A program made the translations under genes and the position numbers. Source: Syntrophus aciditrophicus SB (GTDB taxonomy: Bacteria > Desulfobacterota > Syntrophia > Syntrophales > Syntrophaceae). From it: a stretch of 64,000 bases of DNA. The notes under the pieces were generated by a model that did no database searches, had not been told where the DNA came from, and saw only the letters and a list, made by a program, of their open reading frames with translations. This document shows positions 54,833-57,767 of the stretch, in pieces (the stretch's first letter is position 1; each line of letters opens with the position of its first letter). The stretch spans positions 310,001-374,000 of the forward strand of contig NC_007759.1 in the NCBI RefSeq assembly GCF_000013405.1, in the 5' to 3' direction.

Positions 54833-56344
54833 CTATCCCGGCTCCTGTTCCTCTTCCTGTTCCGGCTTGGGATTTCCGTTTTCCTTTTCCAGAGTCACGA
54901 AAAAGGACGAGTCGCCGCGTTGAACGAGCAGCAGCCATGTGTTGTTTTCCGGCCCTCTGGAGAGGGCGTTCTGGTAATCCTTCAAAGTGCGGATACGGGC
55001 TCGATTGATCTGAAGGATGATATCCTGGATCTTGAGACCGGCATCATCGGCAGCCGAACCGGGACGTATTCTTGTAATAATCACGCCGCCTTGAACCTTG
55101 CGTCCCAGATTCCTTGCGATTTCCGGGGTCACCTCCTGAACGGTCATGCCGAGCTGTTGATGAACCGGTTCCTTTGCTGCGATCTCCCTGGCATCCTTAC
55201 GCTCCCCGATGACGGCCGACAGCGTCATTTCCCGTCCGTCTCTCAAGGTCCTGACCTGCACCTTTTTCCCCACCTTCAGCGCAGCCACGATTTTCAGCAG
55301 ATCCTTCGTGCTGGTGACGGGTTTGCCGTCAATCCCGATAATGATATCGCCTGCCTTCATACCCGCCTTATCACCCGGCTCGCCTTCCAGAACCTGACTC
55401 ACCAGCGCGCCCTGCGAATTCTTCAGCTTCAGGTTCGCGGAAATCTCCTCGGTGATATCCTGCACGGTGATGCCCAGCCAGCCGCGGGTCACCCGCCCGC
55501 TGGTTTTCAGATCCTCAAGAATTTCCCTGGCCATGTTGATCGGAATCGCAAAGCCGATTCCCTGCCCCTGGGCCACGATGGCCGTGTTGATTCCCACGAC
55601 CTCCCCAGCCATGTTGAAGAGAGGGCCGCCACTGTTTCCCGGGTTGATGGAGGCGTCGGTCTGCAGAAAATTGTCATAGGGTCCCGCTCCGATCACCCGT
55701 CCTTTCGCGCTGATTATCCCGGCCGTAACCGTATGATCCAGGCCGAAGGGATTGCCGATGGCGAAAACCCATTCGCCGACTCTCAACTTGTCGGAATTGC
55801 CGAGGGTGACGACGGGCAGAACCCGGTCCGCCTTGATTTTGATCAGGGCGATATCGGTGTTGGAATCCCGCCCTTTGACTTCGGCGTCATATTCTTTGCC
55901 GCTGGACAGTTTTACCCGGATCTTGTCGGCTTTTTCCACCACATGATTATTCGTGAAGATGTAGCCGTCGCTGGAAATGATGAATCCCGAGCCGAGACTC
56001 CGCTGTTTGAGTTCCCGTTCGGGAAGATCGTCGAAAAAGCGGCGGAAGAATTCATCGCTGCCGAAAAACCGGTCGAAAGGCGTTTCCCCGCCTGGGAGTC
56101 TTCGCGCTCCGGTTTTAATGACTTTGGTCGTGCTGATGTTCACAACAGCCGGACCGAGCTTCTCTGCCAGATCGGCAAAAGAAACCGGCGCGGCGGAGTC
56201 CGGAAGCACGTCACGCGCATGGGCTTCTCCCGAACCGGATAGCGGCGCCCACGCCGGACATGGGAAGGCGGGCATCATAACCCCGGCCATCATAATGAAC
56301 ATCAAAATTACTGAAAACACTTTCTTTCGACGTTTCAATGTCAT
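54833..56344 (-). CDS. Periplasmic serine protease, DegP/HtrA family
   Basis: A 503-residue Do-type protease. A signal peptide is at the N-terminus (VILMFIMMAGVMMPAFP). The trypsin-like domain has the catalytic triad in FTNNHVVEKA, DSNTDIALIK and INPGNSGGPLFN, followed by two PDZ domains (GWLGITVQDI and QLGMTVQEVTPEI regions). The protein degrades or refolds damaged periplasmic proteins. The ATG at 56344 has GGGGGG nine bases upstream; a TTG three codons earlier is possible. A 7-bp-armed palindrome about 100 bases upstream may be its operator. Confidence 0.95.
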   Translation of the reverse strand: MTLKRRKKVFSVILMFIMMAGVMMPAFPCPAWAPLSGSGEAHARDVLPDSAAPVSFADLAEKLGPAVVNISTTKVIKTGARRLPGGETPFDRFFGSDEFFRRFFDDLPERELKQRSLGSGFIISSDGYIFTNNHVVEKADKIRVKLSSGKEYDAEVKGRDSNTDIALIKIKADRVLPVVTLGNSDKLRVGEWVFAIGNPFGLDHTVTAGIISAKGRVIGAGPYDNFLQTDASINPGNSGGPLFNMAGEVVGINTAIVAQGQGIGFAIPINMAREILEDLKTSGRVTRGWLGITVQDITEEISANLKLKNSQGALVSQVLEGEPGDKAGMKAGDIIIGIDGKPVTSTKDLLKIVAALKVGKKVQVRTLRDGREMTLSAVIGERKDAREIAAKEPVHQQLGMTVQEVTPEIARNLGRKVQGGVIITRIRPGSAADDAGLKIQDIILQINRARIRTLKDYQNALSRGPENNTWLLLVQRGDSSFFVTLEKENGNPKPEQEEEQEPG

Positions 56345-56793
56345 GGTAAACAACCCCCCTGTTTTTAGAATTGATTTTTTTCAGAATGCCGCAAAGAGTA
56401 TTTCCCGGTTAAACGCATTCCCGACTACAAGCTTGGGTTGAAATTAATCATAGATTCAACCTTTTGTCTATTTTGTTTTTCCTGGCGCCGTTCTTGAACT
56501 TGACCCGAACCTGCGACAGTCGCTGGTCGGCCTGCGATCACGGGTGAAAAACCCGCGTTTATCCATTTCCTCCTAAAGACCGGGAATTACGGAACATTGA
56601 AAGCATAGTGATGACAATAAAATCTACATTCAGAAAAAAACATGTTATAATTATTTAAAATAAAAATCTGGAATGCGGCGATCAGGGAAACTGCCGTTTT
56701 CCCATTGTGCGCATATCCAGTGGAACATCGGGATTTCGTTGGGAATCAGATGACTGAACAGCAATTTTCAACTCAGACGAAAGGAGGCATGTT
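56345..56793. other. Divergent intergenic region
   Basis: 449 bases between degP (-) and the duplicated helical protein (+). It holds the palindrome at 56436-56461, a small CGGGT-GAAAA-ACCCG hairpin near 56546, TATAAT at 56646 without a good -35, and GGGAAA/TTTCCC at 56685-56703. No gene is seen. Confidence 0.5.
56436..56461. promoter_or_regulatory. Operator-like palindrome upstream of degP
   Basis: GGTTGAA (56436-56442), a 12-base spacer, TTCAACC (56455-56461): a perfect 7-bp inverted repeat 92 bases upstream of the degP start codon. It looks like a site for a dimeric regulator, such as an envelope-stress response regulator, which is an inference. Confidence 0.4.
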
Positions 56794-57150
56794 ATGGCGA
56801 TGCTGCAAATGAACGAGGCTGAAGCTGCGGAAACCCGTGAAATGCTGAAGGCTGTCATTAAACCGCTGGAACGGCAAATAGCCGCTGTGGATCTTGGGCG
56901 TAGAGATTTTCGTCAGTTTCTTAAACATCGACGAGCCCTTGTCGATGACTGGCTGAAGCAGCTTGAGAAATCGACGAACCTCGAGATGACCGACGAGGAT
57001 GCGAAAGAAGGCGTTGCGATGCTGAAGGATGCCATTGTACCGCTGGAGCGATCGATTGCCGCTACCGATCTGGGACACAGGGACTATCGTGAGTTTCTTA
57101 AAAAACGGCGATCCCTTGTCGACGTGCTGTTAAAGCGTCTTGAAAAGTAA
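56794..57150 (+). CDS. Duplicated helical protein of unknown function
   Basis: A 118-residue protein consisting almost wholly of two repeats: residues 7-59 and 66-118 align without gaps, 32 of 53 positions identical by my count, including PLERxIAAxDLGxRDxRxFLKxRRxLVDxxLKxLEK. Both repeats are predicted helical and highly charged. No signal peptide or metal-binding cysteines are seen. AAAGGAGGC precedes the ATG. The hemerythrin-like gene is 150 bases downstream on the same strand. I do not recognise the family. Confidence 0.8.
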   Translation: MAMLQMNEAEAAETREMLKAVIKPLERQIAAVDLGRRDFRQFLKHRRALVDDWLKQLEKSTNLEMTDEDAKEGVAMLKDAIVPLERSIAATDLGHRDYREFLKKRRSLVDVLLKRLEK

Positions 57151-57299
57151 TCAATCCGGTCTTCAAAAAATAACAGAAAAAAGATAGCAGGGCGAAGCAT
57201 TCGGGGGGCCATGACGGGCCCCCTGAGACTGTCCGGAGGCGTCAAAGCGCTCCTGCTTTAATAAAGGGCTACCGGGGTTGAAGGACGGGAGGTTCAAAG

Positions 57300-57767
57300 A
57301 TGGAACTGAAGGTTCCCCAGACACTCAGGCTGGAACATGTGGAACTGCGTGAGGAGCTTTACGCCCTTACAAAGGAAGACAATGATCTCGGCATTGCGGC
57401 CCGTGACTTGATGGAGCTTTTTTATATGCATGCCATCAAGGAGGAAGAGAGGGTCCTGCCTGCCCTGGAAGCCCTGCCCTTCCTCGCTGAGGGAAAAATT
57501 ACCGATTCGATGAGATTCCTGAAGGACATTGCCGATGACCTGAAGGGAGGGCTCTATGGTGAACTCTTTGAGGATCACAAGGCCATCGTGGCGTCACTGA
57601 AGAATATTGCGCAATCGGCTCTTGACCAGGGCCGGAAGGAAGTGGTCAAATTTGTCGAGCGTTTTATTCTGCATGCCCAGATGGAAGAAGAAATCTTTTA
57701 TCCGGCGGCCCGGATGACTGCAGATTATTTTCAACTCCTGATGAAGTGCCGGACAGATTCTGATTAA
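57300..57767 (+). CDS. Hemerythrin HHE-domain protein
   Basis: A 155-residue four-helix-bundle protein with the HHE pattern in duplicate: His13 in LRLEHVELREEL, His44 with nearby Glu in HAIKEEERVLP, His93 in EDHKAIVASL, and His125 with Glu129-130 in HAQMEEEIFYP. These residues can hold a diiron site. Such proteins bind oxygen, sense it, or repair iron-sulfur centres; the exact role here is open. GGGAGG lies shortly before the ATG. A GC-rich imperfect hairpin at 57203-57223 sits between this gene and the duplicated helical protein. Confidence 0.85.
   Translation: MELKVPQTLRLEHVELREELYALTKEDNDLGIAARDLMELFYMHAIKEEERVLPALEALPFLAEGKITDSMRFLKDIADDLKGGLYGELFEDHKAIVASLKNIAQSALDQGRKEVVKFVERFILHAQMEEEIFYPAARMTADYFQLLMKCRTDSD

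Follow-up and report, generated by a model that had tools for sequence, protein, structure and literature searches.

A Syntrophus protein with a tandem pair of undescribed but widespread domains, predicted as strand–helix–helix, and its possible architecture as a single-chain pseudo-dimer

The window analyzed here (the whole 64,000-nucleotide stretch of the Syntrophus genome, a genome denoted G000) contains a short gene encoding a 118-residue protein (hereafter P0001), flanked on one side by a divergently oriented protease gene and on the other by a gene for a hemerythrin-like protein. The features of this locus are listed below.

54833..56353, minus strand: DegP/HtrA-like protease, the divergent neighbor (PF13365 and PDZ domains)
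56623..56651, plus strand: promoter-like TCTACA-17-TATAAT, with TG ahead of the second hexamer (site search)
56780..56787, plus strand: ribosome-binding site AAAGGAGG, 6 nt before the ATG (read from the sequence)
56794..57150, plus strand: repeat gene, encoding 118 residues in two strand–helix–helix repeats (ORF reading, self-alignment, AlphaFold, dN/dS)
56794..56970, plus strand: repeat 1, residues 1–59, predicted strand 2–5 and helices 8–31 and 37–59 (AlphaFold/DSSP; family profile match)
56971..57147, plus strand: repeat 2, residues 60–118, predicted strand 62–65 and helices 67–90 and 93–117 (AlphaFold/DSSP; family profile match)
57203..57224, plus strand: G+C-rich hairpin downstream of the repeat gene and ahead of the hemerythrin-like gene (read from the sequence)
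57300..57767, plus strand: hemerythrin-like (HHE) gene (PF01814, 31.7 bits against a cut-off of 25.3), kept as a neighbor in the genus only

The promoter-like site is one of two found in the region, where 1.3 would be expected by chance, a weak indication alone; an alignment of three upstream regions places similar letters at the same position in two further genomes of the genus (G073 and G074). The hairpin can likewise be drawn at the same place in these two genomes (loci L002 and L003) from other letters, and its RNAalifold consensus, in which the core pairs are mostly unchanged, carries a covariation term of −0.33 (slight support); no run of T follows it, such that it does not constitute a clear terminator.

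Self-alignment of P0001 superimposes residues 7–59 on 66–118 without gaps at 32 of 53 identical positions, as a preliminary description of this DNA had reported, and comparison of the full 118-residue protein with itself at an offset of 59 gives 34/59; shuffling the same residues 2,000 times yielded 16 identities at most at any offset from 40 to 79, placing the match far above the controls. The two-copy build is therefore secure, although the earlier wording of “near-identical” halves overstates an identity of just 58–60%. The DNA of the 53-residue units agrees at 108 of 159 bases, with third positions lowest (29/53), and comparison with the G073 orthologue (L002) gives a dN of 0.24 against a dS of 1.10, indicative of a real protein under purifying selection. 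The gene is short and lacks a known family, features that a chance ORF or annotation artefact would share; that reading is refuted by the selection pattern and is further opposed by the codon-position pattern, the ribosome-binding site and the presence of homologues across phyla, leaving it a vanishingly small probability.

Neither P0001 nor its relatives matched a Pfam or NCBIfam model above the curated cut-off wherever one was shown. Matches to PHROGs were weak (best E 0.008) and sequence searches of the PDB gave nothing of note (best E 0.037 and 0.46). Scanning 33 family members against domain models returned a best E of 0.002 (among the 25 of 53 families shown), and the corresponding NCBIfam scan a best E among the families shown of 0.016, with the “RDAC family” matching three of the 33 (best E 0.016). 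We rejected the Pfam, NCBIfam and PHROGs matches as weak hits to unrelated models, none of them above the shown curated cut-offs; viral models (best E 0.15) offered nothing clear of common helical hairpins. Among the literature entries surveyed on Syntrophus with hemerythrin, PA2171 and small proteins, nothing on the repeat protein appeared. The initial impression that the repeat belongs to no recognized family was thus borne out, with no described domain family found for it in Pfam, NCBIfam, PHROGs or the PDB.

The repeat is nevertheless not an orphan. With P0001 as the query, four of 155 genomes of the class match (its own included): G000 and G073 with two repeats, G074 with one (59 residues, at the same locus as the Syntrophus tandem gene) and G085 with one (60 residues). 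Profile searches for single-repeat homologues reach much further, a six-repeat profile matching 61 of 395 genomes of the phylum at E ≤ 0.01 (the weakest of these matches are partial, close to the limit and may be due to chance) and a 33-row profile matching 49 of the 155 class genomes at E ≤ 1e-4. Any notion of a private repeat is accordingly not sustained. The 33-row profile also found one match in each of 27 out of 149 genomes (E ≤ 1e-3) from the phylum to which an Acidobacteria locus (L059) belongs, and a single match in every one of 13 genomes that had been traced from named loci and chosen for holding the domain. Scanning the genome_contigs collection with the family alignment produced 69 loci from 102 pattern matches, with titles that include Acidobacteria, Gemmatimonadota, Nitrospirae, Planctomycetes, Chloroflexi, Actinomycetota, Proteobacteria and Methanomicrobiales; these are titles of metagenome-assembled genomes, and odd single assignments may therefore be binning errors. 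The same collection searched with P0001 alone gave no relative, its peptide patterns probably being too specific. Both Syntrophus repeats match the family profile (A2) at 1.2e-18 and 1.9e-18, values from a profile that includes these repeats; independent of it, the 60-residue G085 protein finds repeat 2 at 8.5e-5 and P0001 finds the G085 protein at 2.0e-4. The single form is ~60 residues long and usually present in one copy per genome. We conclude that this ~60-residue β-α-α family is undescribed and unnamed, yet widespread.

Two domains in one reading frame occur at six of the 177 domain-holding loci read, all from G000 and G073; second copies in a few other genomes sit on different contigs rather than in one frame. 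Between the helices, each of the five Syntrophus repeats has two additional residues (51-domain alignment), and a tree built from 22 of the 51 rows unites the five in one clade with a support of 100/100. The same tree places repeat 1 of G000 with repeat 1 of G073 (98/98), and the duplication is thus older than the parting of these two genomes. Repeats 1 and 2 differ by a dS of 0.98. The internal duplication first described as recent would hence be so only in the sense of having arisen inside the genus, ahead of the G000/G073 split. Topology tests did not separate early branching of the G074 single copy from loss (AU p 0.52 and 0.54); the fourth genome of the genus (G075, in 580 contigs) has no match to either the repeat gene or the hemerythrin gene.

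Structure prediction for P0001 with AlphaFold (model mbdfd09c03613; 33 aligned rows, two of which cover the second half) returned the order strand–helix–helix twice, at a mean pLDDT of 88.8 and a pTM of 0.73. DSSP assigns two strands in all to this model, residues 2–5 and 62–65, one per repeat; as sole strands these must pair, which joins the repeats and suggests that the Syntrophus protein is a single-chain pseudo-dimer of two β-α-α units. This pairing is deduced from the strand count rather than from coordinates, and the placing of the halves is only moderately certain given the pTM and the two rows over the second half. Proteins with a single domain would, by extension, homodimerize in the same shape. 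Across 51 aligned domains the conserved columns are polar (E29, T33, R41, K45 and R47, in alignment numbering) or hydrophobic (L15, L19, L26, L44 and L58); no Cys or His column is conserved, and hence no metal or redox site is suggested. Comparison of the model with solved structures gave a best E of 0.36 in Foldseek and a best Z of 8.3 at 10.7 Å rmsd in VIA; we discarded the ferritin-like, rubrerythrin and Rop rows, values of this order being attainable between helical bundles simply through a common layout.

In some relatives the domain is joined to a second one. Four proteins from three genomes place the family domain N-terminally with a cNMP_binding-like domain behind it, as identified by Pfam for L008 and L046 and by a local profile for L010 and L058.

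L008:1501-2151: fusion of the family domain and a cNMP_binding-like domain
L010:1501-2118: fusion of the same kind
L046:1048-1668: fusion of the same kind
L058:1492-2112: fusion of the same kind

These fusion proteins are without an evident DNA-binding tail, and a kinase-like gene lies 3′ of the fusion gene in L008 and L010 (by eye). The cNMP-binding part of L008 matches Pycsar-type models in PADLOC (E 3e-8), a match that we take to reflect a shared nucleotide-binding domain and rejected as evidence of defense. At another locus (L034), a separate ORF with a cNMP domain stands close to the family gene.

The clearest partner in gene order is DUF3303 (PF11746), a protein of ~85 residues whose gene is often found directly upstream of the family gene, on the same strand, in Syntrophales of other families. 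Across the class this arrangement holds for 23 of 27 DUF3303 genes, with 33–96 bases between match ends in the 23 genomes concerned; the four exceptions either lack the family gene (G010 and G079) or have the two on other contigs (G036 and G042). Of 155 class genomes, 25 have both, two DUF3303 only, 24 the family only (24 of the 49 with the family) and 104 neither (Fisher p 3e-13, uncorrected for kinship). Outside the class, the pair stands in one genome (G221) among the 35 of the phylum whose loci were fetched, and a Syntrophales-built profile found no DUF3303 in the 69 named loci. The DUF3303 product is likely to be a partner of the domain in related Syntrophales; the four genomes of the genus gave no match to DUF3303, and the partner idea consequently cannot hold for the window's own protein. 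A model of one DUF3303 protein (L009:1692-1952) shows strand–helix–strand–strand–helix–strand at a mean pLDDT of 90.3; its rows in fold searches (microcompartment-shell, NapD, mutarotase and monooxygenase-like, best E 0.0038) were set aside as a general alpha-beta arrangement, and our literature search found no paper mentioning DUF3303.

The neighbors at the 69 named loci are varied, and the counts are rough because gene calls there used a simple longest-ORF method: tRNA_edit and pyruvate kinase genes recur in six loci each, H+-pyrophosphatase and SDR genes in four each. The largest recurring gene group, among the matches listed, spans eight loci, but at mixed positions, and looks like G+C-rich spurious ORFs. 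At four planctomycete-titled loci (including one Brocadiaceae), the family gene has a gene with a tRNA-editing domain on one side and a rubrerythrin gene on the other.

Position between degP and a hemerythrin-like gene had led to the proposal of a stress role, and the proposal can be taken further: the repeat protein would be an accessory of the hemerythrin-like protein, aiding a protein that handles oxygen or iron (hemerythrin for Syntrophus, rubrerythrin for certain planctomycetes) or signaling oxidative stress. The order itself was confirmed, in that divergent degP, repeat gene and hemerythrin gene follow one another in three of the four genus genomes (G000, G073 and G074, the window's included), and the degP found in the corresponding position in G073 and G074 shares 80–81% identity over 353 residues. 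Rubrerythrin (PF02915, Pfam on one) adjoins the family gene at four of the 69 named loci (L081, L082, L092 and L102), and the tRNA-editing gene counted above (aminoacyl-tRNA editing, PF04073, Pfam on two) points the same way. Against this, a hemerythrin relative of the kind sought occurs in only three of 155 class genomes versus 49 with the family, so that the link is local to the genus rather than a general role; furthermore, all four rubrerythrin loci carry planctomycete titles, and most named loci are without such a neighbor among the matches listed. We regard the stress accessory as unlikely; a stress role in Syntrophus, read from the neighbors, is possible, though not as the general theme. 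Two observations concern the hemerythrin-like proteins themselves: within L148:314-1514, G074 has a second such gene (56% identical to the window's) beside what we take to be a thiol peroxidase gene, and the window's protein matches the PA2171-family ribosome-binding persister protein of NCBIfam at E 1.9e-5, far below the cut-off (24.5 of 190 bits).

The element order of the model also invites comparison with ribbon-helix-helix (RHH) regulators such as MetJ and Arc, in which strand, helix and helix follow one another and the strands of two units pair in a ribbon; RHH proteins bind DNA sequence-specifically through exposed, mostly basic strand residues. A DNA-binding regulator of this type, in Syntrophus a single-chain double RHH, would be compatible with the predicted topology (AlphaFold/DSSP), including strands paired between two units, and with the charge of P0001 itself, which is basic (computed pI 9.0). 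It is at odds with the net charge of the 51 domains (median −2), with a strand column, taken as exposed, in which 31 of 51 domains have an acidic E, with repeat 1 helices of 24 and 23 residues, longer than those of RHH proteins, and with the lack of any RHH model match for P0001 and 10 relatives (Pfam, E ≤ 10, HMMER filters on); on balance an RHH-like role appears improbable. Still less probable, to the point of being a marginal candidate, is a toxin–antitoxin-like or defense-like pair with DUF3303, one half of which Syntrophus would have kept and doubled. The tight two-gene order in 23 class genomes would suit such a pair, as would two weak hits in PADLOC, one for P0001 (PDC-M05A, E 0.0069, 14.2 bits) and one for the single-domain G085 protein (PDC-M05B, E 0.029, 12.6 bits), but none of 72,556 plasmid records matched the family, no relative was confirmed among viral contigs, and the usual single copy per genome fits poorly with such a pair. 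Phage records gave no match at E ≤ 0.01 to a consensus-like family member and, to P0001, one phage (two records) at 27% identity and E 0.7.

From the repeat, the family with its spread among genomes, the paired genes and the fusions, together with the predicted fold and strand pairing, we favor, with roughly balanced confidence for and against, a reading in which P0001 is a single-chain pseudo-dimer of an undescribed ~60-residue domain that works in dimeric form as a small adaptor or regulatory module. In most organisms with the domain, it is a small stand-alone protein, which would homodimerize by pairing its N-terminal strands, the two helical hairpins packing next to each other. The Syntrophus lineage has two copies linked in one frame, which would lock the dimer covalently and leave the halves free to diverge. 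The domain dimer would act by binding a partner protein, a role that we propose on the basis of small size, absence of conserved Cys or His, dimer architecture, small-protein pairing and the sensor-like fusion. In related Syntrophales the partner is likely to be the protein encoded by the DUF3303 gene next to it on the same strand, with co-transcription presumed, and in some relatives the domain is fused in cis to a cyclic-nucleotide-binding-like sensor domain; the Syntrophus genus, where no DUF3303 gene was found, has the hemerythrin-like gene downstream instead. More tentatively, this dimerization family could be a common regulatory module across many bacterial phyla and some methanogens, its ~60 residues deployed alone, with DUF3303, in a cyclic-nucleotide-binding-like fusion or, as a natural dimer freed from DUF3303, in the single chain of Syntrophus. 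One odd repeat has in this way led to a family of small proteins that is uncatalogued, has a shape open to testing and comes with natural fusions and, in DUF3303, a strong gene partner; for structural work on it the Syntrophus tandem provides a ready-made covalent dimer.

Set beside known systems, the RHH superfamily shares with the P0001 model its strand–helix–helix order and two units joined by a two-stranded ribbon, but differs in the profile, helix-length and strand-charge features weighed above. DUF3303, with its different order of elements, is a distinct protein from the strand–helix–helix domain, related to it as a neighbor gene and so possibly through the same pathway. Hemerythrin/HHE proteins (PF01814) and the repeat protein are both mainly helical and are neighbors in the genus; HHE proteins have His/Glu iron ligands, however, and the repeat protein has no PF01814 match and no conserved His or Cys column. 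The single-chain Rop four-helix bundle (1yo7) is a helical-hairpin dimer in one chain and a weak structural match to the model (Foldseek rank 6, E 0.88, TMq 0.44). Rop is without an N-terminal strand, and 1yo7 is engineered (by its title) and has no sequence relation that we found to P0001, the Syntrophus protein being a natural tandem.
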